From Thauera aromatica K172 (GTDB lineage Bacteria > Pseudomonadota > Gammaproteobacteria > Burkholderiales > Rhodocyclaceae), in the NCBI RefSeq assembly GCF_003030465.1, contig NZ_CP028339.1, positions 3,542,041 to 3,606,040 on the forward strand: 64,000 nt of DNA. The letters run 5' to 3'. The stretch's first letter is position 1. Every line of letters starts with the position of its first letter. Positions 25,226 through 43,472 of this stretch are shown here, piece by piece. The notes under the pieces are model-generated. The model did no database searches. It was not told where the DNA came from and saw nothing but the letters and a program-made list of their open reading frames with translations. Made by a program: the position numbers and the translations under genes.

Positions 25226-25265
25226 GCACTTATGGAAACGTCGTTCAGCCTTCGGGTAAGCGACT

Positions 25266-27519: not shown

Positions 27520-27602
27520 GGGCAGGTTCCTCGGCAGGCAGGGGGGCGCCCCTTCCCGAGCCCCCTTAGCGCCGGCGATCACCTTCCGCACGCCCCTCTG
27601 AG

Positions 27603-28185: not shown

Positions 28186-30303
28186 TCAGGGGCGGGCGCT
28201 GGCAGCCTCTTGCCGCAGGTCGTGCGCACGCTTGATCAGGTACTGGTGGATGCGTTCGGCATCGGCCTCGGAGACCGTACCGGCAAAAGGCGGCATGCCC
28301 TTGGCGGCGCGCGCGCCCATCAGTACGATGTCCTTGAACTGGGCGTGCTTGCGCGCATCGAGATAGCGCAGGTCAGGCAGCACTCCGCCGGAAATCGCAT
28401 TCAAACCATGGCAACCGCCGCAGAAGCCGTTGTACAGCGTGCGGCCGGCCGCCAGGTCCTCGGCGCTGGCCGTCACGGCCGGGGGTTGCGGTACCGCTTG
28501 CGGCAGCTGCGCCGGCGGCGGCAGCACGACTTTGCCACCCAGCTTGTAGGTCAGCACCCGGGCTTCGGGCTGCACCCTGGCCTCACGCGACAGCGGCCCG
28601 AGGATCAGCGGAAAGATACCGCCCCAGCCCGCCATGAAGGTCACGTACTGCTCGCCATCGACCTCATAGGTGACCGGCCCGGCCATCACCCCGGTATTGG
28701 CCGGAGACGACCACAACAGCTTGCCACTGTCCGCCGCATACGCAGTCACGCGACCATCGGCCGTACCCTGGAATACCAGATTGCCCGCCGTGCTCAACGT
28801 ACCGCCGTTGTAGATGGTGCGATAGTCCTGCGTCCACACCGCCTGCTGCTGGACCGGATCCCAGGCCAGCAGCTTGCCCTTGAAGCTGGCGGCAATCTGC
28901 TTGACCACCTCGGGGTCCTCCGGCAGGTCGGGCACATCCACCCCGAGGTTGACCACCGACTTGTGGGCAACCCGCTCCGGATTGGCGGGCGCCGACAGCA
29001 TGCCGGCGGTCTCTTGCATCGGGATGTAGACCAACCCGGTGGCAGGATTGAAGGACATCGGGTGCCAGTTATGCGCGCCGATGAAGGCCGGCGAGATCAC
29101 CTTCGGCCCCTTCAGGTAGTTCGCAGCCTCCTCGTCCACCGCAGGCCGTCCGGTGGCAAGATCGACATGGGTGGCCCAATTGACCGGCGCGAACTTCTCC
29201 GCCGACAGTAGCTTGCCGTTGGTCCGGTCAAGCACGTAGAAGAAGCCGTTCTTCGGCGCCTGCATCAGCACCTTGCGCTTCTTGCCGTCGATCGGCAGCT
29301 CGGCCAGGATGATGTGCTGGGTGGCGGTATAGTCCCACATGTCACCCGGCGTGGTCTGGTAGTGCCACACGTACTCACCGCTGTCGGGGCGCAGTGCGAC
29401 AATTGACGATACGAACAGGTTGTCGCCCTTGCCTTCGGAGCGGGCCTGGCGGTTCCACCACGACGCATTGCCGGTACCAATGTAAAGCAGGTCGAGTTCG
29501 GGGTCGTAAGCCATCGAATCCCACACCGTACCTCCGCCCCCCTGCTTCCAGTACTCCGTACCGTGCCAGGTCTTACGGGCGATATCCATCGCACGGTCGT
29601 CTTTCTCTTGCGCCGGATCGCCGGGCACGGTGTAGAAGCGCCAGGCCAGCTTGCCGGTGTCCGCATCGTAGGCAGATACATAACCGCGCACGCCATACTC
29701 CGCACCACCGTTACCGATCAGCACCTTCCCCTTGACTACCCGTGGCGCACCCGTGATGGTGTAACTACGGGCGTGGTCGACCACTGTGTCGGTCTCCCAT
29801 AGCTTGCGTCCGTCGCGTGCATCGAGTGCAATCAGCCGGCCGTCGTAGGCACCGACGTAGACCTTGCCCTGCCACACTGCAACGCCGCGATTGACGACAT
29901 CGCAACAGCCTTCGGACATACGGATACCAGGCACATCGGGATCGAACTTCCACAGCAGCGTGCCGGAGCGTGCATCGAAGGCATAGACGATACTCTTCGC
30001 ACCGGTGGTGTACATCACACCGTCAACCACGATCGGCGTTGCCTCCACCCCGCGGTCAATGTCGAGCCTGGCGGTCCATGCCAGGCCGAGCTCACCGACA
30101 TTGCGGTCGGTGATACGCTTGAGTGGCGAGTAGCGTTGCTCGTCGTAGGTGCGGCCGTGGCTCATCCAGTTACCCGGCTCGCGGTCGGCCGCGATGATGC
30201 GTGCAGCATCGACTGCCGCCGGGGCACTGGCGGCGCTGGCGCCAAAAGCCAGCGGAAAGATCAGACAGGCACCAGCGAGGTGCAGGCGTGACGGCAGCTT
30301 CAT
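28186..30303 (-). CDS. PQQ-dependent quinohemoprotein alcohol dehydrogenase (type II)
   Basis: The protein has a signal peptide, an eight-bladed propeller with W-motifs and the disulfide pair CC in IRMSEGCCDVV that touches PQQ. The catalytic Asp is in GDMWDYTATQ. A C-terminal cytochrome c domain has the heme motif CGGCH and a distal MPPF methionine. The residue two after the catalytic Asp is Thr, not the Asp that marks lanthanide enzymes, so calcium is expected. It oxidises alcohols or aldehydes in the periplasm. The ATG at 30303 has GGGGAG 5 bp upstream. A PqqU-like receptor lies downstream; no pqq synthesis genes are in the window. Confidence 0.93.
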   Translation of the reverse strand: MKLPSRLHLAGACLIFPLAFGASAASAPAAVDAARIIAADREPGNWMSHGRTYDEQRYSPLKRITDRNVGELGLAWTARLDIDRGVEATPIVVDGVMYTTGAKSIVYAFDARSGTLLWKFDPDVPGIRMSEGCCDVVNRGVAVWQGKVYVGAYDGRLIALDARDGRKLWETDTVVDHARSYTITGAPRVVKGKVLIGNGGAEYGVRGYVSAYDADTGKLAWRFYTVPGDPAQEKDDRAMDIARKTWHGTEYWKQGGGGTVWDSMAYDPELDLLYIGTGNASWWNRQARSEGKGDNLFVSSIVALRPDSGEYVWHYQTTPGDMWDYTATQHIILAELPIDGKKRKVLMQAPKNGFFYVLDRTNGKLLSAEKFAPVNWATHVDLATGRPAVDEEAANYLKGPKVISPAFIGAHNWHPMSFNPATGLVYIPMQETAGMLSAPANPERVAHKSVVNLGVDVPDLPEDPEVVKQIAASFKGKLLAWDPVQQQAVWTQDYRTIYNGGTLSTAGNLVFQGTADGRVTAYAADSGKLLWSSPANTGVMAGPVTYEVDGEQYVTFMAGWGGIFPLILGPLSREARVQPEARVLTYKLGGKVVLPPPAQLPQAVPQPPAVTASAEDLAAGRTLYNGFCGGCHGLNAISGGVLPDLRYLDARKHAQFKDIVLMGARAAKGMPPFAGTVSEADAERIHQYLIKRAHDLRQEAASARP

Positions 30304-30325
30304 GTGTCTCCCCATCGTCTGTCAC

Positions 30326-30350
30326 TCGATACTGCGGCGCAAGGTATCGA
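30326..30350. promoter_or_regulatory. Inverted repeat upstream of the PQQ dehydrogenase gene
   Basis: TCGATAC-N11-GTATCGA is a perfect 7-bp inverted repeat located 23 bp upstream of the dehydrogenase start. It is a candidate operator; the rest of the 285-bp gap before ppk2 shows no clear element. Confidence 0.4.
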
Positions 30351-30588
30351 TTCCGACATGAATCACGACTGTCACCGTCGCAGCGACATGCCGCACCGGT
30401 ATAGAAGCCTTAATTTTGCGGGGCGGTTACGGGCTGTGACGAGCGCGGTGGCAGTGCGGCACGGGCGGAAGGTTCCCGAGGGTACCAAAGGTTCGGCATA
30501 CTGAGAAACGATCCGCCCTGAATAACTATCTACACGTTACTGTGCGTCACCCCGCAGTTCTGCTTTTGTCATTATTGCGCGACACTGC

Positions 30589-31800
30589 ATGACAATAACC
30601 ACCACGGAGCCCGAACCGATGCAGACCGAGCACAAGAAGGACGCCGCCGTCCCGGCCTCACGCAAGCGAGCGGTGCGCAGCAAGCACGCCGGCGGGGTCG
30701 AAACCCCCCGGCCCGCGCGCGCCGGCGACATCGCCCCTGCACACAGCGCGGCAGGCATCGCCGGGTTCGAGATCGACCAGGCCGTCGGCGCAGCGCGCGA
30801 CGCCAAGACGGTGGCGGTGTCCGACATCGTCCGCCGGGTCGCCAGCGAAGGCATCGACTCCCTGACCCAGACGCTGGCGGCGATCCTCGAGGGCGCCTCG
30901 CCGGACGACGCCGCGGTGCTGCGCGAGACCCTGCTGCACGGCGAGGAGCCGCCGCCGAAAATGCCGGTGGCGCCGGACGACCAGCTCACCCCCGACTGGC
31001 GGGTGGGCGGCTATCCGTACAAGAACCTGATGTCGCGCAAGAACTACGAGAAGCACAAATACCACCTCCAGGTCGAACTGCTGAAGCTGCAGGCCTGGGT
31101 CAAGGAAACCGGGCAGAAGGTGGTGATCGTCTTCGAAGGCCGCGACGCGGCGGGCAAGGGCGGCACCATCAAGCGCTTCATGGAGCACCTCAACCCGCGC
31201 GGCGCGCAGGTCGTGGCGCTGGAGAAACCGACCGAAACCGAACGCGGCCAGTGGTACTTCCAGCGCTACATCCAGCACCTGCCCAGCGCCGGCGAAATCA
31301 TCCTGTTCGACCGCTCCTGGTACAACCGCGCCGGCGTCGAACGGGTGATGGGCTTCTGCAGCAACGACGAGTACAACGAGTTCATGCGCCAGGCGCCGGA
31401 ATTCGAGCGCACCCTGGTGCGCAGCGGCATCCACCTGATCAAGTTCTGGTTTTCGGTGAGCCGCGAAGAGCAGCGCCGGCGTTTCAAGGAGCGCGAGAAG
31501 CACCCGCTCAAGCAGTGGAAGCTGTCGCCGATCGACCTCGCCTCGCTGAACAAGTGGGACGACTACACCAAGGCCAAGGAGGCGATGTTCTTCTACACCG
31601 ACACCGCCGACGCGCCATGGACCGTGGTCAAGTCCGACTGCAAGAAGCGCGCACGGCTCAACGCGATGCGCTACGTGCTGCACAAGCTGCCCTACGCCAA
31701 CAAGGACACCGAAGCCATCGGCCCCCTCGACCCGCTGCTGGTCGGACGCGCCAACGTGGTCTATGAGCGCGGCGAGAAGGAAGCGACCGCGCTGCTTTGA
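30589..31800 (+). CDS. ppk2: Polyphosphate kinase 2
   Basis: PPK2 transfers phosphate between polyphosphate and nucleoside di- or monophosphates. The core contains the Walker A motif FEGRDAAGKGG, the lid region RGAQVVALEKPTETERGQWY and the Walker B LFDRSWYNRAGVERVM. The 403-residue protein carries about 120 extra N-terminal residues that are Ala/Pro-rich and poorly structured before GGYPYKNLMSRKNYEKH, where the usual domain begins. It is transcribed alone. It is a class I (single-domain) enzyme; direction of catalysis is not decided by sequence. Confidence 0.95.
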   Translation: MTITTTEPEPMQTEHKKDAAVPASRKRAVRSKHAGGVETPRPARAGDIAPAHSAAGIAGFEIDQAVGAARDAKTVAVSDIVRRVASEGIDSLTQTLAAILEGASPDDAAVLRETLLHGEEPPPKMPVAPDDQLTPDWRVGGYPYKNLMSRKNYEKHKYHLQVELLKLQAWVKETGQKVVIVFEGRDAAGKGGTIKRFMEHLNPRGAQVVALEKPTETERGQWYFQRYIQHLPSAGEIILFDRSWYNRAGVERVMGFCSNDEYNEFMRQAPEFERTLVRSGIHLIKFWFSVSREEQRRRFKEREKHPLKQWKLSPIDLASLNKWDDYTKAKEAMFFYTDTADAPWTVVKSDCKKRARLNAMRYVLHKLPYANKDTEAIGPLDPLLVGRANVVYERGEKEATALL

Positions 31801-31804
31801 GCCG

Positions 31805-31824
31805 GCCCGCGCTGTGGCGCGGGC
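31805..31824. terminator. Hairpin after ppk2
   Basis: A perfect 8-bp stem, GCCCGCGC-TGTG-GCGCGGGC, begins 4 bp after the ppk2 stop. There is no T run, so it is a weak or assisted terminator. The remaining 220 bp before the next gene hold nothing I can assign. Confidence 0.45.
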
Positions 31825-32046
31825 GGCGGCCGGATCATCGTGAAGCGCACGGCGCAAGCCGGCGCTTCGGACCCAGAGTGGCGACCGACCCCGTCAAGAC
31901 CAGCCTGCGCCAGAAGCACAAGCGCGCGGCCTGGGATGACGACATCAGGATGAAAATGCTGGGAATTCATCCGTTATGACTTCCGAGTGCGGAAACCCTG
32001 GCATGAAACCTACCCTTTGGAAGACGAAAAACCGAGGGAAACTCAG

Positions 32047-32724
32047 TTAATAGGACAAAGCCTGCTCAACCTCGGTTCTATAGTTGTACAGGATTCGGTC
32101 AAGCTCCCAGCCGTTAACTCCAGAACGACGTGCAACCTCAAGATAAAAATTCTCATGCGCTGAATACGAAGGAAAAGAAACCCCCAACAACGCCGAAACA
32201 GATTTTATCCGAACATCTATAGCAATACTGTCTCGAAAGTCTTTATGATACACATCCATCATTATGTTTCTAGCATACTTGGGCCCGATCCCTGGAAATT
32301 CTTTTAAGAACCGGATCTTGCTTTCCCGCCCGACACAGGACAACAGCGCTGCCTTGGCAGCTGCAGGCCCCCCCAGATCACGGATGTGCTCGAAGCAGCC
32401 GAGAATGAAACGTGCTTTCCTGTCCGGCATTCGAATACGCGCAATACGACAAACATCGTAGATCTCAGTGGCGCGGGCAATATCAGTCAGAAGCTCAAGG
32501 ACCTCATACGTAATGCGACGATAGTTGTTTTGGTTTTCGATGAGACCTTGCCGACCTGATGAGCGCCCCATTGTTGCGAAACTTTGCAGTAAATAGTGCC
32601 AAAGGAAGTCGGCGCGCTCTAGATCGGAACTATTCCGTTTTAAGCGATTTAATTCCTGAACCTTCGTTCGAGCGAGTACGCGAATGATCCTGGAAAGACG
32701 ATTTTGCGCTGCTACCACTGGCAT
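32047..32724 (-). CDS. HhH-GPD DNA glycosylase-like protein in A+T-rich accessory DNA
   Basis: The 225-residue protein contains a helix-hairpin-helix-GPD region, FLKEFPGIGPKYARNIMMDV, followed by AIDVRIKSV. In endonuclease III-type glycosylases the same places hold the catalytic Lys (GxGxKTA) and the Asp (VDTHV). Both Lys and Asp are kept here, so base-excision with lyase activity is possible. The four-cysteine iron-sulfur motif of Nth/MutY is absent. Codon use and base content are clearly less G+C-rich than the surrounding chromosome, which suggests horizontal gain. The substrate base is unknown. Confidence 0.65.
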   Translation of the reverse strand: MPVVAAQNRLSRIIRVLARTKVQELNRLKRNSSDLERADFLWHYLLQSFATMGRSSGRQGLIENQNNYRRITYEVLELLTDIARATEIYDVCRIARIRMPDRKARFILGCFEHIRDLGGPAAAKAALLSCVGRESKIRFLKEFPGIGPKYARNIMMDVYHKDFRDSIAIDVRIKSVSALLGVSFPSYSAHENFYLEVARRSGVNGWELDRILYNYRTEVEQALSY

Positions 32725-32959
32725 ATTGGCTTCCTGACCTAACGATTAAGCTATTAACTCGGCAATCAAATAGCGCAATTAATAAACGTACTGAACGTAC
32801 TCATAGCTGAGGGGGCAGCCGCTTTCGGCATAAAGCGAATCGAAAATCGGCGGCATCACACACAGCACCAAATCGGCCAGCACTTTCACTCGAACCAACG
32901 GGTGCTCGACAGCAATACGACCATCGATATTCACGTAGCCGAACAGGGCGTTCTGTTTG

Positions 32960-34413
32960 GGCTCTATGCCGTTTCCAGTGGAAATTGACTTCTCAACAGA
33001 CATGAGCATCGGTGGTACAACCGCCCAACGCTGACAGTAACCGTAACCTCGCACCGCATGAACACCCAGATCGAAGCCCTCTTCACCACCGCACTTGGCC
33101 TGCAGCCGCCCTGGCACGTTGCCAAGGTCGAACTCAACACGGGCAAGCGCCGGATCGACTTCGAGGTCGAGCACACCGGTCGTCGTGCCGCGTGTCCGGC
33201 GTGTGGAGCCGAGCACCAGTTGGTCCACGACCGCGTGCGGCGCAGCTGGCGTCACCTGGATTTCTTTCAGTTCGAAGCGTGGCTGCATGCCGAGATCCCG
33301 CGTGTGCAGTGCAACGGCTGCGGCAAGACCACGCAGTTGCCGGTGCCGTGGGCGCGTGAGGGGAGCGGCTTTACCCTGCTGTTCGAGGCGCTGAGCCTGT
33401 CGCTGTGCCAGGAGATGCCGGTGAGCCAGGCAGCCAACCTGTTGCGGGTTGCGCCCAAGCGCCTGTGGCGTCGGGTGCGCCATTACGTCGAGGTGGCCCG
33501 TGCCAAGGACGACATGTCGGGCGTGCGCTACGTCGGGATCGACGAGACCAGCGTCAAGCGCGGGCACGCGTACATCACCGTCGTGCATGACCTTGAAGCC
33601 AAGCGCTTGCTGTTCGCCACACCAGGCCGCGATCACGTGACGGTGCAGGCCTTTGCGCAGGACATGCGCGCGCACGGCGGCGACCCGCAGGCCATCGAGC
33701 ATGCCTGCATCGACATGAGCGCAGCCTACGCCAAGGGGATCGGCCAGTCGCTGCCCAATGCCCAGATCAGCTACGACCGCTTTCATGTCGTCGCGCTGGC
33801 AAGCGCGGCGATGGACGAGGTCCGACGCGAAGAGATGCGCAGCTCCGCGGCAGCGGTTCGTGAAGCGGTCGGCGCACAGAGCAAGAAGACGCTGCGCCAG
33901 CTGCTGTGGGGGATGCGCAAGAACCCGGTGAGCTGGACCCGCGCTCAGTTCGAGGCGATGCACTGGCTGCAGCGTTCGAATCTGAAGAGTGCGCGCGCCT
34001 GGCGCCTGAAGCAGGCACTGCGCCTGGTCTACAGCGAAGCGGGCGCGAGCAACAGCGAGGAGCTCGCGCACGGGGCGATGTCGAAATGGTTGAGCTGGGC
34101 ACGCCGCAGTCGCCTGGAGCCCTTCAAGCGGCTGGCCGCCACGCTGAAGGCGCACCTCGGTGGCGTCGTACGCGGCATGCTCGACGGTCGCAGCAACGCC
34201 TACGTCGAAGCGATGAACGGTCTGCTCCAGCAGACCAAGACCGCCGCCCGAGGCTTCCGCAACATCGACAACTTCATCGCCATGGCCTACCTGCGCATGT
34301 CTAAGCTCAAGCATCTACCGAACAACCCCTTGGTGCCGGCCATCCCCCGCGACTACGGGCGCTACCGTCATGTCTGTTGAGAAGTCAATTTCCACTGGAA
34401 ACGGCATAGAGCC
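32960..34413 (+). mobile_element. Complete ISL3-family insertion sequence with 8-bp target duplication
   Basis: The element is 1454 bp. Its ends are perfect 46-bp inverted repeats (32960-33005 and 34368-34413), starting GGCTCTATGCCGTTTCCAGT. It is flanked on both sides by the direct repeat TCTGTTTG (32952-32959 and 34414-34421), the 8-bp duplication expected of the ISL3 family. It has one intact transposase gene whose stop codon lies within the right repeat. Perfect ends and duplication indicate a recent insertion. Confidence 0.95.
33058..34380 (+). CDS. ISL3-family transposase
   Basis: This is a 440-residue DDE transposase. The N-terminal zinc finger has CPACGAEH and later CNGCGKT, and a helix-turn-helix region follows. 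The catalytic DDE domain begins at YVGIDETSVKRGHAY, with the second Asp in ACIDMSAAY and a C-terminal Glu in YVEAMNGLLQQ. It is full length and intact, and it lies within perfect inverted repeats. It probably moves this IS and related copies elsewhere in the genome. Confidence 0.96.
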   Translation: MNTQIEALFTTALGLQPPWHVAKVELNTGKRRIDFEVEHTGRRAACPACGAEHQLVHDRVRRSWRHLDFFQFEAWLHAEIPRVQCNGCGKTTQLPVPWAREGSGFTLLFEALSLSLCQEMPVSQAANLLRVAPKRLWRRVRHYVEVARAKDDMSGVRYVGIDETSVKRGHAYITVVHDLEAKRLLFATPGRDHVTVQAFAQDMRAHGGDPQAIEHACIDMSAAYAKGIGQSLPNAQISYDRFHVVALASAAMDEVRREEMRSSAAAVREAVGAQSKKTLRQLLWGMRKNPVSWTRAQFEAMHWLQRSNLKSARAWRLKQALRLVYSEAGASNSEELAHGAMSKWLSWARRSRLEPFKRLAATLKAHLGGVVRGMLDGRSNAYVEAMNGLLQQTKTAARGFRNIDNFIAMAYLRMSKLKHLPNNPLVPAIPRDYGRYRHVC

Positions 34414-34457
34414 TCTGTTTGTGGTCGGTTCGGCGCATCGGAACAATAGGAGCAGTA

Positions 34458-34495
34458 ATGTATGTATGTATGTATGTATGTATGTATGTATGTAT
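34458..34495. repeat. ATGT tetranucleotide microsatellite
   Basis: There are about 9.5 uninterrupted copies of ATGT (38 bp). It lies about 20 bp beyond the start codon of the IS5-like remnant and close to the ISL3 target duplication. Tetranucleotide tracts of this length can change copy number by slippage. No gene here is obviously phase-controlled by it. Confidence 0.9.
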
Positions 34496-34589
34496 TGTAA
34501 CGTCTGGGAAAGCCTCGCCGTTGCTCAAAACTGACTAATCCGTATTCCGCTAAATTCTAAATATTTTGTTGACATAAACCAAGTGAATT

Positions 34590-35528
34590 TTATCTGATTC
34601 GAGAGGTAATCATCGTCACGCGCAGATCGACACCGAGGTCCGGTTCGCTGGTCGTTGCATAGATGTAGAACACGTCGGGTGCAGGGTACTGCTCAATTGT
34701 CCGGACGATTTTCCGAACCGAACTCATGGTCAGAGCAGACGATTCCGTGATCGTGACGAAGACGCGTCGCGTTCCGTCAAGTTGCCGGGCGACGATCCCG
34801 TCTTCTGCCTGCACGGCCGCGAGAACATCCTGCAATGCGGATTCGCCTGTCCCCGTGATGCACAGGGCGGAGAGTTCCCCGGCCCCCTTCAGCCAATCGA
34901 GGACCTTCGAGAGATCGCAATTGACCATGCTTGGCTCCAGGATCGTTGAGGTGAAGCAACGGACAAGGTTTATCACTTCCTTGTCGATGAGGCGGGACAT
35001 GTGATTGAAGGTTGTATCCTGGCCGCGCCGCACACCGGGCTCATCATTGCTGACCGTTATCACCGCCTCCGTCTGGCGCCGGAGCCGTCGCAGTCCCTTT
35101 CGTGCAAGCCGCTCGCGACCGTTTTCGAAGGAGAACGGTCGGGTCACGATTGCGATTACGGGAATGCCCATCTTGCGCGCGATTTTGGCGATGACCGGCG
35201 TCGAGCCTGTGCCGGTTCCACCCCCAAGCCCGGCGACGAGGATGAGAAAGTGGCGGTGCTTCAATGCATTCCGAATCGTTCGACGAGACGATTTGGCAGC
35301 GGCCCGACCTGCGGAAATCATTCCCCCGGTTCCGGCCCAGGATGTGCCGAGGTGCAGCTTCGTCGAGGCGTGACTGCGTGCAAGCGCAGCGGCGTCGGTG
35401 TTGGCTGCCATGCATTCGAGCTGCTCACCTCCGGGCAGGCAGAGCAGGGCATCAAGAAAGTTGCAGCCTGCGTCACCCACACCCATCAGAACGATCCGAG
35501 GGGGACCCACAATTTCTACTGCTTGCAT
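34590..35528 (-). CDS. Divergent FtsZ/tubulin-like GTPase
   Basis: This is a 312-residue FtsZ paralogue. It has the T1 loop GVGDAGCNFLDAL, the tubulin signature GGGTGTGSTPVIAKIA (T4), PFSFENGRERLA (T5) and the C-terminal RVTMI. In the T7 loop, FtsZ has N-x-D-F-A-D and this protein has NCDLSK, so the second Asp that helps GTP hydrolysis on the neighbouring subunit is Lys. It ends at the globular core and lacks the linker and tail peptide that bind FtsA and ZipA. It is therefore not the main division FtsZ. It lies in an accessory cluster with a WYL-type regulator, and its role is unknown. Confidence 0.88.
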   Translation of the reverse strand: MQAVEIVGPPRIVLMGVGDAGCNFLDALLCLPGGEQLECMAANTDAAALARSHASTKLHLGTSWAGTGGMISAGRAAAKSSRRTIRNALKHRHFLILVAGLGGGTGTGSTPVIAKIARKMGIPVIAIVTRPFSFENGRERLARKGLRRLRRQTEAVITVSNDEPGVRRGQDTTFNHMSRLIDKEVINLVRCFTSTILEPSMVNCDLSKVLDWLKGAGELSALCITGTGESALQDVLAAVQAEDGIVARQLDGTRRVFVTITESSALTMSSVRKIVRTIEQYPAPDVFYIYATTSEPDLGVDLRVTMITSRIR

Positions 35529-35609
35529 GAGTATCTCGTAATGACTCGTGATTGACGGCGGCCTCAAGGCGAGCCGGCTGGAAAACGATCAACGGGGTGT
35601 TGCAATGGG

Positions 35610-36059
35610 TCAGAAGTTCTTGGCCCACTCTTCCCAGAAACCCGGTTCATCGTGCGCGGCATTCTTCATCGCCATCTCCAGAGGCACGTAGCAGAAGGTG
35701 GCATCCGGAAATCGCATGCTGCCATCCGGATTCTCCAGAAATGCCCGCAGCTCCTTGTAGGCAGGTAAGGTGGGATCGTACGGCAGGTCGATGTAGATCT
35801 GTCCCAAGTAGGGAAATATTCCGTTCTCGTTCGCGAAGTCGGCGCAATGCCGCCAGCCGATGCCGTGTGCGTCAAGCCAGCCGATGATCTGCTGCCGCCG
35901 CGGAAGATGCTCCCAGTCAAGTTCGTCAAAGAAGCCAAGACCATCGACATTCTCTTCCTTGAGGTCTTCATCGGATGTCGGCTGATGGAATTGCACATAC
36001 AGGACATCGCGCTGTTCCTTGCGGGCGATCGCATCTATGTGTTCGATTAACATGACCAT
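35610..36059 (-). CDS. Conserved accessory protein of unknown function
   Basis: This 149-residue acidic protein begins MVMLIEHIDAIARKEQRDVL and contains ENVDGLGFFDELDWEHLPRR and DLPYDPTLPAYKELRAFLEN. I do not recognise a domain; no signal peptide or membrane segment is present. The start has AGGAG 7 bp upstream. It lies 81 bp upstream of the FtsZ-like gene on the same strand and has one of the shared 21-bp palindromes about 116-136 bp before its start. It is probably expressed with the FtsZ paralogue. Confidence 0.72.
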   Translation of the reverse strand: MVMLIEHIDAIARKEQRDVLYVQFHQPTSDEDLKEENVDGLGFFDELDWEHLPRRQQIIGWLDAHGIGWRHCADFANENGIFPYLGQIYIDLPYDPTLPAYKELRAFLENPDGSMRFPDATFCYVPLEMAMKNAAHDEPGFWEEWAKNF

Positions 36060-36174
36060 GACCAATCTCCTGATGTTTTGTAGGGAAGCCCGAGCTGGCA
36101 TGCAGGCCGCAGGGAACAGCCCCGACCGGCCCTCACCGCCTTCGTCATCGATCGGAACCCATCTTATCGCTCTA

Positions 36175-36195
36175 GTACGACATTTATTGTCGCGT
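36175..36195. promoter_or_regulatory. WYL-cluster palindrome, copy 1
   Basis: GTACGAC-N7-GTCGCGT matches the shared form ATACGAC-N7-GTCGTAT at 11 of 14 arm positions. It lies in the promoter region of the 35610-36059 gene, possibly overlapping its -35/-10. The 316-bp gap around it also contains one doubtful small frame and otherwise nothing recognised. Confidence 0.55.
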
Positions 36196-36338
36196 TAAGG
36201 TGTGACGACATCCGCCAGGAAGTTCTCCAAAAACGCATATTGCATGAAGAGGCACGAATGACCTTGGCTCCTCGCCCTTTTCGATACCGCGGCCAGGTCT
36301 GCGGCTGGCGTGGCGGTGTCATCGCCCCCGGGAGCCAT
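36195..36338 (-). CDS. Possible small protein (47 residues)
   Basis: A short frame, MAPGGDDTATPAADLAAVSK and on to FLENFLADVVTP, follows the 36376-37026 gene on the same strand with a 37-bp gap. A GAGG sequence stands just before the ATG. It resembles nothing I know and overlaps the first palindrome at its end, so it may be chance. Confidence 0.2.
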   Translation of the reverse strand: MAPGGDDTATPAADLAAVSKRARSQGHSCLFMQYAFLENFLADVVTP

Positions 36339-36375
36339 GCCCTCACGCCGTCCCGTTCCGTCAGCATGGGCGGAG

Positions 36376-37026
36376 TTATCGATGCCCCGCCTCTTCCTCG
36401 CGGACCGTGCCAGACCGGCTCTGGACGGTGGCCATGGCGGCCATGTAGTCGTGGAGCGTACGCCGTAGCAGGTCGGCGGCAAGCCGGGCGATTTCACCCG
36501 AAATTTCGCTGCGTGCGGCGTGGAAGGCCGCGCGCAGGTTGGCCGCATCCTTTTGTGCGTCCTTGTCCATGTCTTCGAGAACGTAATCGGCATCGTCTGC
36601 AAGCGCTCGCGCGAGCATGCGAAGGAAGCCGGGCTTGACCGTGTCGAAGATCCGTTCGAACTTGGGTGTCATGCGCTGGCGAATGCGCAGGCCTTTTCTC
36701 AGGCTGTCGAGGCTGGCGCGTTCGGTATCGAAGTCCCACACCGGTCCGGCGGCAGCCTGCATGGCGTCGCTCAACGCTTCGATGCGGTTTGAAATCCATC
36801 TTTCGCAGGCTTCGTCAAAACGCATCGCCAGCGTTATCAGGAGCCCGGTCTGGATGAAATCGGCGAAATCCCACATCAGGCCATCGGATGTGAGGTTTTC
36901 CAGCTTGCGCTCGAGCGCATCCCAGACATCGCCAGCGATGAAGTCGCCAATATCAGCGGCATCCGCATGCCAGGTTTCGAGTTCGGCTTTTTGCCGGGCG
37001 ATGAGGGACGAAGGGATTTCAGCCAT
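36376..37026 (-). CDS. Helical accessory protein of unknown function in the FtsZ-like cluster
   Basis: The 216-residue protein starts MAEIPSSLIARQKAELETWH and appears almost entirely alpha-helical. It has an aromatic, acidic N-terminal part (GDFIAGDVWDALERKLENL) and a C-terminal part with many charged residues that could form coiled coils. No known domain or membrane span is seen. The ATG at 37026 follows an AGAGG ribosome site. A 21-bp palindrome lies 61 bp upstream, separate from that of the phosphatase-like gene, so it is probably its own unit under the same regulator. Confidence 0.72.
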   Translation of the reverse strand: MAEIPSSLIARQKAELETWHADAADIGDFIAGDVWDALERKLENLTSDGLMWDFADFIQTGLLITLAMRFDEACERWISNRIEALSDAMQAAAGPVWDFDTERASLDSLRKGLRIRQRMTPKFERIFDTVKPGFLRMLARALADDADYVLEDMDKDAQKDAANLRAAFHAARSEISGEIARLAADLLRRTLHDYMAAMATVQSRSGTVREEEAGHR

Positions 37027-37086
37027 GATTGCCTCTTGACGGTGTCCCGCTCCGGATCGAGCGGCAGAAGAAATTCTATTTTTGCC

Positions 37087-37107
37087 ATACGACAAACTGC
37101 GTCGCAT
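37087..37107. promoter_or_regulatory. WYL-cluster palindrome, copy 2
   Basis: ATACGAC-N7-GTCGCAT: the left arm is exact and the right arm differs by one base from ATACGAC-N7-GTCGTAT. It lies 61 bp upstream of the 36376-37026 gene and just after the end of the phosphatase-like gene. Confidence 0.6.
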
Positions 37108-37144
37108 ACCGACGGACAAGTCCTGCTGGAAGCTCCGCTCACCG

Positions 37145-37732
37145 TCAACGCAGACAGGGACGGTAGTTCCAGACGTACCACTCCTGTAGCGCGTTATCGA
37201 TCGCACGCGGATGGGCCATGCGCACGCATTCAACCGCCTGCTCGGGACCCATGCCGGACTCGACAAGCAGGCATGCAGCCACGGTCCCGGCTCGCCCGAA
37301 CCCCCCGATGGAGTGCACAAGGACGCGCCTGCCGGTCCTCAGCAGCGCGCCGATCTCGCCCGCGACCGCCTGCCAGCCATCTTCGAATGCGGGACCGGGG
37401 GGATAACGGTCACGGACTGGCAGGTGGCGCCACTGCATACCCAGACGTCCGCTGCCACTCGCCAGGCGTTCGGAGCCGGACGTACTGAGCTCGTGCGGTT
37501 CGGTCAGCGTCAGGATGAGCGCGGCTCCCCAGTCGCGGATGCGCACCAGATCCTCACCCAGACAGCATTGCCGGCTCTCCCCCGAGCCATCGCCCGATTG
37601 CAGTCCCGGACACAGGGACAGCCCGATTTCTCCCCAGCCTCCGAGAGGCTGGACGGAGGCGTCCGGGAGCTTGCGCGACGGCAGCCGAGACGGCTCGGGA
37701 GGAATCGGGTGGATGTCATATCTGTTTTCCAT
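37145..37732 (-). CDS. CDKN3/dual-specificity phosphatase homologue with catalytic Cys replaced by Ser
   Basis: The 195-residue protein has the fold pattern of bacterial CDKN3-like or dual-specificity phosphatases: GAALILTLTE before the general-acid loop (HLPVRDRYPPG) and then VLVHSIGGFGRAGTVAACLL. Active enzymes have HC-x5-R at this place; here it is HS-x5-R, encoded by TCC where TGC would give Cys. The Arg of the phosphate loop and the loop glycines are kept, so the protein should still bind phosphate or phosphopeptides without hydrolysing them. It is divergent from the WYL regulator with a palindrome between them. Confidence 0.78.
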   Translation of the reverse strand: MENRYDIHPIPPEPSRLPSRKLPDASVQPLGGWGEIGLSLCPGLQSGDGSGESRQCCLGEDLVRIRDWGAALILTLTEPHELSTSGSERLASGSGRLGMQWRHLPVRDRYPPGPAFEDGWQAVAGEIGALLRTGRRVLVHSIGGFGRAGTVAACLLVESGMGPEQAVECVRMAHPRAIDNALQEWYVWNYRPCLR

Positions 37733-37752
37733 GACGGCATTGAACCATCCGG

Positions 37753-37773
37753 ATACGTCATAAAATGTCGTAT
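37753..37773. promoter_or_regulatory. WYL-cluster palindrome, copy 3
   Basis: ATACGTC-N7-GTCGTAT: the right arm is exact and the left differs by one base from ATACGAC-N7-GTCGTAT. It occupies the 69-bp region between the divergent phosphatase-like gene (start 37732) and the WYL regulator gene (start 37802), so it can control both. Confidence 0.65.
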
Positions 37774-37801
37774 AGTTTCCGCATCGAAGGAGAACAGTTG
37801 C

Positions 37802-38827
37802 ATGGCGGCATACAAGGAACGCATCGAACGCCTCGAAGCCCTGTTACGGATCATTCCCACGCGTGCTCGTCCGGAGGAGTGTCCCGACCCGGCCCGCCTG
37901 CTGGACCGTGTAGCCGAACACTTCAAGGCGCATACCAGCCCGAACGCCCGGCGCCGGGCGATCCAGCGCGACCTCGAGGAGCTGGTCGGCGCAGGTGCGA
38001 TCGAAGCGGTCAATCCCGGCGGCAAGCCCCTGCGCTACCGGCGCACGCATGAGCGCGACGACACCGATCCCTACGTCTGGGACTATGCCCGTCGGGCAAT
38101 GCGCAACCTCGTCGAGAGTGCACTGCCGATACGACGGCTCGAAACTCTGTGGCCGCAGTTGCTCGACCCGCAGAACGGTTTTGCCCTCGGGGAGGACAGA
38201 CTGCGCATCGTCAGCGACACCCAGCGTCTGCTGCCGGCCGCGATCCGGAACGGCGTGCTGGCCGACGTGCTCGAGGCGCTCGCCTGTTCACGCACGCTCA
38301 AGGTCGGCTACCGCGACAACGCGGGAAAAGTCACCCAGCCTACGTTGCACCCTCAGGGACTGTTGCAGCGTGGCCCCCGCCTGTATCTGTTCGCACTGAA
38401 GAACGACGAGAATGAGCCCCTGCGCATGTATGCACTGCACCGCATGACGCGCTCGGCCGTCAACGAGGAGGCGGCCCGGCTCATGCCGGGCTTCGATCTG
38501 CAGACACTGATCGAGAGCGGGCAGGCGGACTTTGCCGGGAACAAGCATTTCGATCTGCGTCTGCGTGCCCGCGGCTATGTGGCCGAGTTGCTGCGCGACT
38601 GCCCGCTCGCCGAGGGTCAACGCATCGAAGACGAACCCGACGGCAGCCCGTTCGACGTCGTGGTCCAGGCTACCGTACCGGCAACCGGACAATTGCTGCG
38701 CTGGGTGCTGGGTTGCGGCGACAAGGTCGAAGTGCTCGAACCCGCCGCGCTGCGCCAGGTGGTGATCGCACAGACCGCCAAGGCGGCCGCGATCTACCAG
38801 GGCACGACGCCGGAGGCGGCCGGCTGA
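37802..38827 (+). CDS. WYL-domain transcriptional regulator
   Basis: The 341-residue protein has an N-terminal winged helix-turn-helix (about residues 1-80, with RRRAIQRDLEELVGAGAIEA as the recognition part) and a WYL domain near residues 165-220 (LKVGYRDNAG, then LHPQGLLQRGPRLYLFALK). A C-terminal WCX-like part follows. WYL proteins bind ligands such as nucleotides or oligonucleotides and often control defence or stress genes. The start at 37802 fits the domain and gives a 69-bp divergent promoter with a 21-bp palindrome. It is the likely repressor of the three sites in this cluster. Confidence 0.88.
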   Translation: MAAYKERIERLEALLRIIPTRARPEECPDPARLLDRVAEHFKAHTSPNARRRAIQRDLEELVGAGAIEAVNPGGKPLRYRRTHERDDTDPYVWDYARRAMRNLVESALPIRRLETLWPQLLDPQNGFALGEDRLRIVSDTQRLLPAAIRNGVLADVLEALACSRTLKVGYRDNAGKVTQPTLHPQGLLQRGPRLYLFALKNDENEPLRMYALHRMTRSAVNEEAARLMPGFDLQTLIESGQADFAGNKHFDLRLRARGYVAELLRDCPLAEGQRIEDEPDGSPFDVVVQATVPATGQLLRWVLGCGDKVEVLEPAALRQVVIAQTAKAAAIYQGTTPEAAG

Positions 38828-38911
38828 CGATCGGCCCGTATGCCCTCCATTGCCCCCCGGCTGCGCACCCGCAGGGCGATGGAGGGGCGGGCAGAGCTGC
38901 CCGCGCCGCGT

Positions 38912-39541
38912 TCAGCCGCCCAGCGCCGGATTGAGCGAGTAGGAGCCGGTGAGCTTCGCCTCGGCGAGCACATGGCCGGCGATCGCCGCGCGCAGCCCGG
39001 CGCCGGTGAAGCGCCCTGCGACCGCGCAGTGCGGCACGTCGAGGGCGTACAGGGTGAACACGTAGTGGTGGAGCCGTTCGTCGTTCCACGGCGGGCAGGG
39101 GCCGTCGTAGCCGTGGTAGTCGCCTTTCATCGTTTCGTCGGCGGCGAACCAGGGGGTGAAGTCGTTGACGCCCTGGCGCGCGCCGAGGGCCGCGGCCGGG
39201 CCGGGCTTGCCGCCGGGCGTGACTTCGTCGGAAAACTGGCCGGCGGCGATTTCGCGCAGCTCGGCCGGGAGGTCGACGAGGAGCCAGTGGTAGAAGTCCA
39301 CCCGCGCCAGGCTGGCGGGAATGGTCCGCCCTTCCTGATTGACGTCGTCGCCGCGACTGGGAACGTCGGGGTCGTGGCAGATCAGGGCAAAGGACTTCGT
39401 GCCCGCGGGCACGTCGGACCACGACAATTGCGGGTTGCGGTTGCCGCCGAGGCATACCCGGCCTTCTGCGGCCGGAATGCAGAAGGCGAATTCGCCCGGA
39501 ATCGGGGCGCCGTCGGTGAAGCTCCGGCTGGTCAGTTTCAT
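38912..39541 (-). CDS. YbhB/YbcL-family (PEBP-like) protein
   Basis: This 209-residue protein belongs to the bacterial phosphatidylethanolamine-binding/Raf kinase inhibitor-like family. It shows NPQLSWSDVPAGTKSFALIC, the DPDVPSR ligand-pocket motif, FYHWLLVDLP and YDGPCPPWNDERLHHYVFTL. No signal peptide is present. The ATG at 39541 is supported by GAGGAG 7 bp upstream. Cytoplasmic relatives such as E. coli YbhB have no settled function. Confidence 0.92.
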   Translation of the reverse strand: MKLTSRSFTDGAPIPGEFAFCIPAAEGRVCLGGNRNPQLSWSDVPAGTKSFALICHDPDVPSRGDDVNQEGRTIPASLARVDFYHWLLVDLPAELREIAAGQFSDEVTPGGKPGPAAALGARQGVNDFTPWFAADETMKGDYHGYDGPCPPWNDERLHHYVFTLYALDVPHCAVAGRFTGAGLRAAIAGHVLAEAKLTGSYSLNPALGG

Positions 39542-39647
39542 GGCGTTCTCCTCACGGGTTGAAAGCTTCGCGGCCTCATGCGGGAACGGCATCCGCTTGC
39601 GCGCGCCATCCCCGGCAGGCCATCCAGGGGCCGCGGCGGCGCGCCGG

Positions 39648-41498
39648 CTACGGCGCCTCGCACAGGCAGTGCAGGTACAGGTGCTGCGGATCGTTCCAGC
39701 GCGCCAGCTCGGCGGCCGATGCCTGCATCTGCCCCAGCAGCAGGGCGAATGCGCCCGGATTCGCGGCGTGGCCGCCGGCGCGGCCGAGATCGATGCCGAA
39801 CGGCTCGCCCGCACGCATCAGCCGGCGCAGCAGGCGCTGCTCGATGGATTCACCGGCAGCGGGCCAGACCAGCTCGTAGTCCTCCAGCCCGGCGCGCCGG
39901 GCAGCGGCGGCAACCGCCGCGGTGAGCCCGCCGAGGTGATCGACGAGCCCCAGCTCGGCCGCCGCGGCGCCGGTCCACACCCGTCCGCGGGCGACCTCGT
40001 CGACTTCGGCGACGCCCATGTCGCGCGCCTTCGCCACCGTCTCCAGGAAGCGCCGGTAGCCGTGCTCGATGCCGAGCTGCATCGCCGCGGCGGCGTCGGG
40101 GTCGAGCGGGCGGCGCGGGTCGAGCGCGCCGGCGAGCGGCGCGGTGGCCACCCCATCGACCCCGATGCCGAGCCGGCGCAGAGGTTCGGAAAACTCCGGG
40201 AACAGGCCGAAGATGCCGATCGAGCCGGTGACCGTGGCCGGCGCCGCCCAGATTTCGTCGGCGCCGGTGGCGATCCAGTAGCCACCGGAAGCGGCCACCG
40301 AGCTCATTGAGGCGATCACCGGCTTGCCCGCGCGGCGGGTGAGTTCGAGCTCGCGGCGGATCAGCTCGGAGGCCCAGGCGCTGCCGCCAGGGCTGTCGAT
40401 GCGCAGCACCACCGCCTTCACCCGTTCGTCCTCGCGCGCGTCGCGGATGAGGCGGGCGAAGGTGTCGCCGGCGACCACGCCGCCGGCTTCCATGCCGTCG
40501 ACGATGGTGCCCTGGGCGACGATCACTGCGACCCGGGCATCCGCGCCCGCGGCGTTGCGGTCGATGAGGGCGAGGTAGTCGGCGGCGTCGATGCTGCGCG
40601 CCTCCCTGCCGCCGGGCGCCGTGCCCACTGCTTCGACCAGGCGCGCGCGCCATTCGTCGCGGGTGCTGAAGCGATCGACCAGGCCGGCGTCGAGCGCCGC
40701 CTGTGCCGCGTCTCCGCCGCTGGCAGCGAGCGCGGCGCGCAGGCCGTGCACGTGGGCATCGACCGCCTCGGGGGCGAGCTTGCGCCCGGCGGCGATGTCG
40801 TCGCGCATCACCTGCCACAGGCCGCCGAGCAGGTCGCGGGTGGATTCGCGGTCCTCGTCGGACATGTCGCTGCGGGTGAAGGGCTCGGAGAAGGACTTGT
40901 ACTCGCCGACGCGGAACACATGGACCTTGATCCCGAGGGTATCGAGCGCGCCCTTGAAGTAGGTGCCGTAGCGCGCCAGCCCGCGCAGCAGGACGAAACC
41001 GTCGGCCGACAGGTGCACTTCGTCGGCAACCGAAGCGAGGTAGTACTGCGTCTGGGTGAAGCGCTCGCCGCGCGCCAGGACCGGCTTGCCCGAGGCCTTG
41101 AAGTCGGCGATCGCGGCGCGCAGTTCGGCGAGCTTGGAGAGTCCGCCGCCGAGCAGCTCGTCGGTCTCGATCACCAGCGCGGCGATGCGCTCGTCGTCGC
41201 GCGCGCTGCGCACCGCCTCGAGCAGGTCGGCGAGCGCCACCTGCCCGCCCGGCGCGCCGCCGGCGCGCAACAGCGCCAGCGGCGGCTCCAGCACCGCCTG
41301 CTCGACGATCGTCCCCACCGGGCGCAGCACCAGTGCCGAGCCTGGCGCCAGCGCGGGGCCGGGGTGGAAGAAGAGGGCGAGCACGGCGCCGATGGCGAAG
41401 ATCAGCAGCGCATAGAAGGCGCCCCGCAGCAGCAGGTCGAGCATGCGCACGAAAGTGCGCAGCACGGTGAACAGGAAGCGGAACAGGGCGCGCAGCAC
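39648..41498 (-). CDS. sppA: Signal peptide peptidase SppA (67-kDa type)
   Basis: SppA degrades signal peptides left in the inner membrane. The 616-residue protein has an N-terminal membrane segment (YALLIFAIGAVLALFF) and tandem S49 peptidase domains. The general-base Lys is in FRVGEYKSFSEPFTRSDMSD and the nucleophile Ser in SMSSVAASGGYWIATGADEI, both in the order of E. coli SppA. Its length is that of the two-domain enzyme. It follows trmB by 40 bp on the same strand and probably belongs to the thiS, thiG, trmB, sppA unit. Confidence 0.95.
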   Translation of the reverse strand: MLRALFRFLFTVLRTFVRMLDLLLRGAFYALLIFAIGAVLALFFHPGPALAPGSALVLRPVGTIVEQAVLEPPLALLRAGGAPGGQVALADLLEAVRSARDDERIAALVIETDELLGGGLSKLAELRAAIADFKASGKPVLARGERFTQTQYYLASVADEVHLSADGFVLLRGLARYGTYFKGALDTLGIKVHVFRVGEYKSFSEPFTRSDMSDEDRESTRDLLGGLWQVMRDDIAAGRKLAPEAVDAHVHGLRAALAASGGDAAQAALDAGLVDRFSTRDEWRARLVEAVGTAPGGREARSIDAADYLALIDRNAAGADARVAVIVAQGTIVDGMEAGGVVAGDTFARLIRDAREDERVKAVVLRIDSPGGSAWASELIRRELELTRRAGKPVIASMSSVAASGGYWIATGADEIWAAPATVTGSIGIFGLFPEFSEPLRRLGIGVDGVATAPLAGALDPRRPLDPDAAAAMQLGIEHGYRRFLETVAKARDMGVAEVDEVARGRVWTGAAAAELGLVDHLGGLTAAVAAAARRAGLEDYELVWPAAGESIEQRLLRRLMRAGEPFGIDLGRAGGHAANPGAFALLLGQMQASAAELARWNDPQHLYLHCLCEAP

Positions 41499-41538
41499 GG
41501 CGGGCGGTCCTCGGTAGGCGGGTGGGCGGGCGGCCCGC

Positions 41539-42288
41539 TCAGCCGGCGCGGCGGCGGAACACGAGGTCCCACACGCCGTGGCCGAGGCGCAGGCCGCGGT
41601 TTTCGAACTTGGTCAGCGGACGGTGGCCGGGGCGCGGCGCGAACCCCTCCGCGGTATTGGCCAGCGCCGGCTCGGCCGACAGCACCTCGAGCATCCAGTG
41701 GGCGTAGTCCTCCCAGTCGGTGGCGCAGTGCAGGTAGCCGCCGGGGGCGAGCTTCTGCGCGACCAGGGCGACGAAGTCGGGCTGGATGATGCGGCGCTTG
41801 AAGTGGCGCTTCTTGCGCCACGGGTCGGGGAAGAACACATGCACGCCGGCGAGGGCGCCGTCGGCGATCATGTCGCGCATCACCTCGACCGCGTCGTGCT
41901 GGATGATGCGCAGGTTGGCGAGGCCGCCTTCGGCGATCAGCTTGCACAGCGCACCGACGCCGGGAGTGTGCACCTCGATGCCGAGAAAGTCGTGGTCGGG
42001 CATCGCCGCGGCGATGCGCGCCGTGGTCTCACCCATGCCGAAGCCGATCTCGAGGATCTTCGGCGCGCGGCGGCCGAACGCTGCGTCGAGGTCGAGCGGC
42101 GCGGCGCGGTAGTCGATACCGATCTTCGGCAACATGTCGTCGAGGTAGCGCTGCTGGGCTTCGGACATGCGCCCCTGGCGCAGCACGAAGCTGCGGATGC
42201 TGCGGCTGGAAAAGCGGTGCTCGGGACTGTCGCGGCCGATGATCTCGACTCCGGCGACCGCTTGCTGCGCGTCTTGCGTGCCCGTCAT
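41539..42288 (-). CDS. trmB: tRNA (guanine-N7-)-methyltransferase
   Basis: TrmB makes 7-methylguanosine at position 46 of tRNA with S-adenosylmethionine. The 249-residue protein has [20 protein letters not shown] as the SAM site, [20 protein letters not shown] as the catalytic motif and [15 protein letters not shown] near the C-terminus. It overlaps the thiG stop by four bases (ATGA), implying translational coupling. Confidence 0.97.
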
Positions 42289-43070
42289 GAACCGATCAGC
42301 CCCTGCGTCGGCGAGCTCGGGTCGGCCGAGTAGAACTTGCGCGGCATGCGCCCGGCGAGATAGGCGTCGCGCCCGGCTTCGACCGCCTTGCGCATCGCGC
42401 CCGCCATCCGCACCGGCTGGCCGGCGGCGGCGATCGCGGTGTTCATCAGCACGCCGTCGCAGCCCAGCTCCATCGCGATCGCGGCGTCCGACGCGGTGCC
42501 CACGCCGGCATCGACCAGCACCGGGACCTTGGCGTTGTCGATGATCAGGCGCAGGTTCCAGGGGTTGAGGATGCCCATGCCAGAGCCGATCAGCGACGCC
42601 AGTGGCATCACCGCGACGCAGCCGATGTCTTCGAGCATTTTCGCCTGAATGGGGTCGTCGGCACAGTACACCATGACCTCGAAGCCGTCCCGAACCAGGG
42701 TTTCGGCCGCCTTCAGCGTCTCCGGCATGTTCGGGAACAGGGTCTTCGGGTCGCCCAGCACTTCGAGCTTGACCAGGGCATGGCCATCGAGCAGCTCGCG
42801 CGCCAGGCGCAGCGTGCGCACCGCGTCGTCGGCGCTGTAGCAGCCGGCGGTGTTGGGCAGGAGGGTGAATTTTTCCGGCGGCAGGACGTCGAGCAGGTTG
42901 GGCTCGTCCGGGTTCTGGCCGATGTTGGTGCGGCGGATCGCCACGGTGACGATCTCCGCGCCGCTGGCGTCGATCGCTTCGCGGGTCTGGGCGAAGTCCT
43001 TGTACTTGCCGGTGCCGACCAGCAGGCGCGAGGCGTAGGCCTTGCCGGCGATGACCAGGGAGTCGTTCAT
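42285..43070 (-). CDS. thiG: Thiazole synthase
   Basis: ThiG builds the thiazole ring of thiamin from deoxyxylulose phosphate, dehydroglycine and ThiS-thiocarboxylate. The 261-residue protein shows [11 protein letters not shown], the Schiff-base Lys in [15 protein letters not shown] and the phosphate site [18 protein letters not shown]. It lies 108 bp after thiS and is coupled to trmB. The usual adjacent thiO/thiE genes are not in this window. Confidence 0.97.
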
Positions 43071-43178
43071 GATGTGGGCCTGTGTGGTTCTGGATGAATT
43101 TGAAAACGGTCCGGGAGGCGGATCAAAAGCTGCCGGGAAAGCGCCCTCTTCAGGCCGCCGGCGGCGGCCGCGCCGGAC

Positions 43179-43382
43179 TCAGCCGCCACCGACGGCGACG
43201 ACGACTTCGAGCCGGTCGCCCTCGGCGAGGGTGACTGCACCGTGGCGCGCCTTGGGCACGATCTCACCGTTGCGCTCGACCGCCAGGCGCTTGCCGGCGA
43301 GGCCGCGGGCTTCGAGCAGGGCGGAGACGGTGAGATCGGGCGGCAGGGTTTCGGATTCGCCGTTGATGAAAACCTGGATCAT
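43179..43382 (-). CDS. thiS: Sulfur carrier protein ThiS
   Basis: This 67-residue ubiquitin-fold protein begins [20 protein letters not shown]. It ends VVVAVGGG, the Gly-Gly tail whose terminal carboxylate becomes the thiocarboxylate sulfur donor for ThiG. It is the first gene of the thiS-thiG-trmB-sppA direction. No TPP riboswitch was recognised upstream. Confidence 0.93.
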
Positions 43383-43472
43383 GTCGGTGCATGCGATGAA
43401 GTGCGGGGGAAAATCTTAACATACCGCGCCGTTTGACTTTTCCCGCACCGGGCGCTAACTTTCCGCCACCTT

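Follow-up and report, generated by a model that had tools for sequence, protein, structure and literature searches.

A predicted WYL regulon with an FtsZ paralogue on an inserted island of Thauera aromatica K172

Results

The five genes of the cluster

We analyzed a stretch of 64,000 nucleotides from Thauera aromatica K172 (assembly GCF_003030465.1, contig NZ_CP028339.1, positions 3,542,041 to 3,606,040; the whole stretch is here referred to as the window) and focused on a cluster of five genes at window positions 34590–38827, which are predicted to be controlled together by a WYL-domain regulator and which include a divergent FtsZ paralogue. All five open reading frames (ORFs) are intact: FtsZl, B, C, D and the WYL+WCX regulator. 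Their start codons were chosen by reading, and 37802 is the most likely start of the WYL gene.

FtsZl (34590–35528, minus strand, 312 aa) is an FtsZ-like GTPase that matches the Tubulin/FtsZ GTPase family in Pfam (1.7e-28). Gene B (35610–36059, minus strand, 149 aa) represents a nameless family with no Pfam match, and it probably shares one transcript with FtsZl. Gene C (36376–37026, minus strand, 216 aa) is predicted to be all-helical and belongs to a rare family; its only Pfam match, to DUF883 (0.023), lies under the Pfam cut-off. Gene D (37145–37732, minus strand, 195 aa) encodes a pseudophosphatase of the PTP/DSP fold (PTP-SAK 5.5e-10, CDKN3 2e-5). Its motif reads HSIGGFGR, with Ser at the position of the catalytic Cys, while HC..G..R is found in 8/8 homologues fetched out of 66 plasmid records with a match. 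The regulator gene (37802–38827, plus strand, 341 aa) encodes both the WYL (2.5e-11) and the WCX (9.5e-15) domains. An initial annotation of this locus, made from the sequence alone, had listed a divergent FtsZ-like GTPase, a pseudophosphatase lacking its catalytic Cys and a WYL regulator among five genes; the intact frames, the Pfam matches and the Ser in D confirm it.

Among the cluster proteins the regulator alone matches PADLOC models (two WYL models and one Cas3c model). The predicted structures of C (pLDDT 81.8, from four sequences) and of B (pLDDT 62.8, a poor model) have no PDB match at E<=0.001. Moreover, promoter and terminator scans gave no excess over shuffled sequences.

A predicted 19-bp operator ahead of the cluster genes

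The promoter regions of the cluster share a 19-bp palindrome of 7-5-7 structure, TACGWCA-N5-YGTCGYR, which is present at three places with no mismatch at any of them: TACGACATTTATTGTCGCG at 36176–36194 ahead of B-FtsZl, TACGACAAACTGCGTCGCA at 37088–37106 ahead of C, and TACGTCATAAAATGTCGTA at 37754–37772 between the divergent D and WYL genes. At one mismatch or fewer, the window has four matches at these three places (one site is counted twice, once per strand), compared with 0.27 on average, and none of 100 shuffles reached four, so that the shared palindrome already named in the initial annotation is upheld. Since the pattern was derived from the three window sites themselves, its informative part is that no other exact place exists in the genome: in the whole 3.7 Mb (two contigs) the exact places are the window's three only, with two further places at one mismatch, while the reversed control pattern gave 10 matches at one mismatch or fewer.

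The closest relatives of the regulator in the plasmid collection are encoded on the Thiodictyon plasmids pTs485 and pTs417 (54% and 52% identical; 52% each in the alignment). On both plasmids the operator stands directly ahead of the WYL gene (pTs485, locus L131, 8972; pTs417, locus L132, 8964), and this is the only place without mismatch on either whole plasmid. For the L132 stretch taken alone, its two matches were also reached by 12/200 shuffles. Because three operators of like build are exact only in the island and the motif precedes the two closest plasmid relatives of the WYL gene, it is strongly indicated that the WYL protein acts at the 19-bp operator ahead of its own gene, D, C and B-FtsZl. 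On this sequence evidence the five genes very probably form one regulon.

FtsZl compared with canonical FtsZ

FtsZl is 39% identical to the genome's own FtsZ, and across 29 genomes of the genus no other extra copy of FtsZ was found. It retains the T4 motif GGGTGTG, which is present in 48/48 canonical rows of the alignment. The T7 loop reads NCDLSK as against the canonical N-x-D-x-x-D; the Asn and the first Asp are retained, while the second Asp, present in 48/48 canonical rows, is replaced by Lys. The C-terminal tethering peptide (DIPAFLRR type) is absent. The score of 183.5 bits against the TIGR00065 equivalog does not reach the cut-off of 295.2, and FtsZl retains 37/65 invariant residues in the N-domain and 11/33 from T7 onward. 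In the tree it lies on an extreme branch. Moreover, at the 28 columns that separate the host FtsZ family from the other rows, it matches the host at 5, the others at 5 and neither at 18, which speaks neither for nor against an origin as a recent duplicate of the host FtsZ.

The T7 loop of FtsZ reaches into the GTP pocket of the next subunit for hydrolysis (PMC8456036). FtsZl would thus be a subunit that can bind GTP on one face, does not support hydrolysis with the other and carries no tether. As the GTP motifs are kept and both the second T7 Asp and the tail are lost, FtsZl is a plausible filament poison or cap.

FtsZ paralogues with the same operator on plasmids

Two further FtsZ paralogues accompany the operator. 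On Thiodictyon pTs485, an FtsZ paralogue is followed by a Sir2 gene, about 5 kb from the WYL gene; a one-mismatch operator lies 82 bp from its likely ATG, and the three matches of the locus were reached by 0/200 shuffles. On a plasmid of Rhodoferax antarcticus, an FtsZ-like gene is followed by a macro-domain gene and is divergent from a run of AAA, DUF2779 and WYL genes. The intergenic region holds two operators (0 and 1 mismatch), and the four matches of the locus were likewise reached by 0/200 shuffles; a general repeat search of this region found no inverted repeats, whereas the 7-5-7 scan did find them. The Rhodoferax WYL protein is only 29% identical to that of the window.

The three FtsZ paralogues are about 28–34% alike. 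The Thiodictyon protein retains 58/65 invariant residues in the N-domain and 26/33 from T7 onward, and the Rhodoferax protein 33/65 and 18/33; in both of them the two T7 Asps are retained and the T7 Asn is changed. With branches too long to separate these cases, the three may represent three recruitments or one fast-evolving family. Both plasmid paralogues start with twin-Arg, signal-like stretches (MKRRIFLQ... at L131 3903 and MNRRKLFQ... at L024 7842), which is odd for FtsZ; the sequence of the window FtsZl has no such N-terminus. A second FtsZ match is also listed in each of the genomes G275, G422 and G451. The presence of the same operator at FtsZ copies of two unrelated bacteria suggests that mobile gene sets for stress or virus defence have taken up FtsZ look-alikes.

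As a separate observation, the AAA ATPase gene beside the WYL gene of pTs485 (L131 5709–8726) is split by an IS607-type element, and its pieces are 71–76% identical to the pTs417 ATPase.

Relatives of the cluster genes elsewhere

Gene C has four relatives outside the host genome, and no FtsZ is present in any stretch fetched around them. In genome G434, the one match among 199 other relatives, the order is WYL, C, two dynamin-like genes, a weak beta-helix match, a 189-aa protein and a third dynamin-like gene. In the order sample C matched 2/398 other genomes. In Gallionella STC_7, C is found with two zinc-ribbon proteins, an IetA-like AAA ATPase and ZorA- and ZorB-like proteins, with a WYL gene about 8.6 kb further on. 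In Casimicrobiaceae SKYG17, C accompanies an ATPase of MoxR type (by reading) on a contig that ends at 4.8 kb, and the Tepidimonas UBA997 locus has no convincing WYL gene within 20 kb (best E 0.015). In all, the neighbours of the C relatives match the PADLOC models for ZorA, ZorB, IetA, LeoA and LeoBC. A peptide-pattern scan of the genome contigs with gene C alone gave no match; a four-row C profile found three loci there, two of them on contigs of G672 and G503. No C relative was found in the plasmid collection.

Gene B matched 9/299 other genomes of the order, several of them by short pieces only. In 4/4 fetched loci from these genomes, B has a WYL gene no more than 4 kb away, to be read beside a background in which 130/200 order genomes have any WYL gene (1–5 each), and two of the four carry relatives of the Thiodictyon Sir2. 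Among seven plasmid records with B, four were examined and one of these (L027) has a WYL gene. In locus L135 we also observed one open frame (314–2167) with a WYL segment followed by a Sir2 domain related to that of Thiodictyon, an apparent WYL-Sir2 fusion. A B relative (41%) occurs at 6001–6522 in three IMG/VR contigs (L155–L157) with identical stretches, and the B family therefore travels in virus-like DNA too. No B was found in the phage records, and no C or WYL relatives in the viral contigs.

Among the plasmid relatives of D, two are fused to an ADP-ribosylglycohydrolase and one lies beside it; one of these is next to a WYL gene. Two of the eight fetched D relatives sit in arsenic operons. 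B and D relatives are both present without FtsZ in the fetched loci. An AAA family related to the pTs417 ATPase is found in 7/26 compared loci (L024, L105, L115, L131, L132, L134 and L144), and in each of the seven WYL is present too, by a match or, for L115, by annotation. In 274 genomes of the class, no close orthologue of the WYL protein was found besides the host's own; four other WYL proteins reach E<=1e-30, with only 110–132 bits against 630 for the own protein. Their loci (L143–L146) have no FtsZ, B or C match, and L144 has a D and an AAA match.

The initial annotation had treated the five genes as a unit that might co-occur in other genomes, which was not borne out: they occur separately. 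A conserved five-gene operon is rejected, with C relatives lacking FtsZ, B and D relatives lacking FtsZ, and FtsZl standing alone among the 29 genomes of the genus; such a conserved system fails because the search of genomes and collections yielded no further unit of all five.

The operator across the wider gene pool

A broader pattern, TRCGWCA-N5-YGTCGYR, was defined on five sites, the three of the window and those of the two Thiodictyon WYL genes. It has sites in 8/16 WYL loci (232 kb), at 16 places, while two of 18 control loci (251 kb) have one place each. One of these two control sites has no mismatch and lies 65 bp ahead of the Tepidimonas C gene, so that this locus is no true control. 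Among genes outside the window, a site within 200 bp upstream was found for 2/2 FtsZ-like, 4/6 AAA, 2/4 C and 1/2 DUF2779 genes (the DUF2779 genes of L134 and L135 were named by reading). For the pool as a whole, 13/46 genes have such a site, whereas 2000 random placements within the same loci gave 0.6 on average and never more than 4; because divergent genes share some of them, 12 distinct sites lie behind the 13 genes. Neither the strict operator nor the broader pattern is present in L033 and L105. The densest locus of the pool is L134, where five operator-like sites are found in 8 kb (627–8624), some of them upstream of B, of a DUF2779-like gene and of an AAA ATPase gene, the rest elsewhere. 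With the operator at the other FtsZ paralogues and at some relatives of B, C, AAA and WYL, an exchange of modules under one regulatory code is indicated.

The inserted island

The cluster is part of an island of about 7.07 kb (31827–38900), which comprises an orphan gene, an ISL3 element and the five genes, and which is missing in the sister species G395. In G395, the closest relative found (SppA 96% identical), the counterpart of window position 31826 is joined to that of 38901 with about 30 nt between them. The flanks are a PPK2 gene that ends just before 31826 and a PEBP-like gene at 38901 (both named by reading). The orphan (32047–32724, minus strand, 225 aa) has no Pfam match at 0.01 and by reading looks like a helix-hairpin-helix DNA-repair type protein. 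The ISL3-family transposase gene (33058–34380, plus strand; PF01610, 4.3e-68) lies between inverted-repeat arms near 32979 and 34394 with at least 24 identical bases. GC3 is 49–80% for the orphan and the five cluster genes (49% for the orphan), against about 92% for PPK2, SppA and TrmB. The clean absence in G395 together with the low GC3 shows that the island was acquired recently. Since G374, G376 and G379 match the PEBP-like gene and not PPK2, they offer no clean empty site.

Two other features were seen close by. About ten ATGT units stand in a row at 34458–34499, in the interval that separates the ISL3 element from the end of FtsZl. Moreover, window positions 25227–30560 (a PQQ-dehydrogenase-like gene by reading) are not matched by blastn anywhere in the 20 kb of G395 that correspond to this part of the window, which makes this a second variable region close to the island.

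Discussion

The cluster is likely to belong to a pool of conflict or stress genes that are mobile and under WYL control. The complete explanation, in which the island is a mosaic member of this pool with the five genes as its regulon and FtsZl as its effector, we regard as rather probable. Under this explanation the five genes would be held off until the WYL domain senses a ligand linked to infection or damage, of nucleic acid or ADP-ribose type. FtsZl, as the effector, would join or cap the FtsZ filaments of the host and so halt division, and the arrest would limit phage spread or wait out the damage. D would bind a phosphorylated or ADP-ribose-type ligand without turnover, and C would be a helical adaptor that serves also beside dynamin-like and ZorAB-like genes. 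The parts of this proposal differ in strength. An anti-phage role, for which the neighbouring genes are the evidence, is a real possibility that falls a little short of even. We propose tentatively, from the residues kept and lost, that FtsZl is a WYL-induced, non-dividing FtsZ that brakes host division. The more general idea is doubtful and is offered as a conjecture: FtsZ paralogues may have been taken over by bacterial conflict systems, perhaps on several occasions, so that a non-hydrolysing or re-targeted FtsZ is produced on alarm under WYL control and jams the host division polymer. This would be a polymer-poisoning branch of immunity, with a 19-bp operator code common to several genera.

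Several observations weigh against the above explanation. Eight of the 16 WYL loci have no site at all, and an upstream site is found for 0/7 D, 1/9 B, 3/15 WYL and 0/1 Sir2 genes. The list of pool genes was not blind, several sites being already known when it was compiled; moreover, 3 of the 13 matches use pattern-defining sites, without which the count is 10/43. On the whole Thiodictyon plasmids, matches at one mismatch or fewer are not above the reversed control. As for FtsZl, the two plasmid paralogues have both T7 Asps, so the T7 defect of the window protein is not a shared feature, and in the Rhodoferax protein invariant residues are no scarcer past T7 than in the N-domain. Around the additional full-length FtsZ of G337, a stretch of 13 kb contains no match to WYL, and no second genome with all five genes together was found in the genomes and collections searched. 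The view of the initial annotation that the genes are one functional system therefore stands in part: they are predicted to form a WYL regulon and their parts recur in WYL-linked islands with defence-like neighbours, but the five are not a conserved unit.

Other explanations were compared with the mobile-pool one. FtsZl may instead form a static polymer or scaffold of its own, apart from host FtsZ, for envelope remodelling or repair and in place of the dynamin-like proteins of G434. The relatives of C sit with three Dynamin_N proteins or with ZorA/ZorB-like proteins, and C may therefore pair with membrane or polymer machines that can replace one another; the distance of FtsZl from canonical FtsZ (39% to its own) agrees with a separate polymer. 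However, by reading FtsZl has no membrane segment or tether, G434 has a canonical FtsZ and no FtsZl, and C is missing from the other two FtsZ-WYL loci; we consider a separate polymer rather unlikely. A DNA-damage checkpoint under WYL control without a special tie to phage, with FtsZl as a damage-induced division brake like DidA under DriD in Caulobacter, is unlikely as well. DriD, a WYL-domain regulator, does induce the division inhibitor DidA (PMC4211646), and the WYL proteins DriD and PafBC are described as binding single-stranded DNA, but the target of DidA is FtsN and not FtsZ (PMC4211646), and the patchy presence on mobile DNA with ZorAB-like, LeoA-like, macro and Sir2 neighbours fits conflict better than housekeeping.

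The cluster might also be an offshoot of the WYL/ADP-ribosylglycohydrolase/phosphatase systems of the type described in PMC9503650, in which D would serve to sense or soak up ADP-ribose-type molecules, with FtsZl as a late passenger or an effector. The D relatives fused to or beside ADP-ribosylglycohydrolase, once next to WYL, and the macro and Sir2 genes that follow the other two operator-bearing FtsZ genes agree with such an origin. Nevertheless, no glycohydrolase was seen by reading among the window ORFs at 30000–43500, D has lost its Cys and further relatives of D belong to arsenic operons, which leaves this origin quite improbable. Finally, two proteins of the same cluster, FtsZl and D, have lost catalytic residues, an insertion element lies next door, and the AAA gene of the related Thiodictyon locus is itself split by an IS607-type element, as might be expected of a decaying island whose genes are no longer under selection; yet the five frames are open, the GTP-binding motifs are retained and the three operators are intact, and decay is hardly probable.

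Comparison with known systems

A number of described systems resemble the cluster in part. Predicted immune systems composed of WYL or Nudix, ADP-ribosylglycohydrolase and rhodanese-phosphatase proteins (PMC9503650) share with it a WYL regulator, a phosphatase of the broad group of D and modular mosaics with Macro among the variable genes. The cluster differs from them in that by Pfam none of its five proteins is a glycohydrolase, D is without the Cys and one gene encodes an FtsZ paralogue; because of the missing glycohydrolase and the lost Cys, we did not file the cluster under these systems. FtsZ is not mentioned in the main text of PMC9503650. BrxR (PMC9122601) is a regulator of the HTH-WYL type on a mobile island and likewise has inverted repeats of 5-bp spacer, which it binds, ahead of its own and its target genes, but the arms are 11 bp (7 bp in the cluster) and of other sequence, and its targets are BREX and other systems, not FtsZ. 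In DriD-DidA (PMC4211646) a WYL-domain regulator likewise turns on a division brake, as is proposed for the cluster, although DidA is not an FtsZ paralogue and acts on FtsN, and DriD is an activator.

FtsZl1 and FtsZl2 (PMC2875224) are FtsZ-superfamily proteins that exist beside canonical FtsZ and are thought to be non-dividing. FtsZl1 is accompanied by vWA proteins and has no recognisable T6-H7 parts, and FtsZl2 is extended at its C-terminus by about 300 aa; unlike them, the window FtsZl, with its 312 aa, aligns through T7 to the FtsZ C-domain, and none of the five proteins has a vWA match. The Zorya and LeoABC-like systems, as defined by the PADLOC models, are linked to the cluster through the C relatives, which adjoin ZorA/ZorB-like or LeoA/LeoBC-like proteins, but no protein of the window cluster matches either.

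In agreement with the initial annotation, which knew of no system with this gene set, the paper searches (most subscription papers and bioRxiv preprints lie outside their coverage) showed no set with an FtsZ paralogue under a WYL regulator. The cluster combines a WYL regulator with inverted repeats at its own and target promoters, which are predicted operators, as in a WYL-controlled defence or stress regulon. WYL regulators of defence islands are already known, and what appears to be new here is the FtsZ paralogue under the predicted control of such a regulator. If FtsZ copies do serve as effectors under such control, an arrest of division through subunit poisoning would add a new kind of output to immunity or to checkpoints. 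Moreover, the shared operator offers a DNA handle by which members of the pool can be found through their regulation rather than through protein homology.

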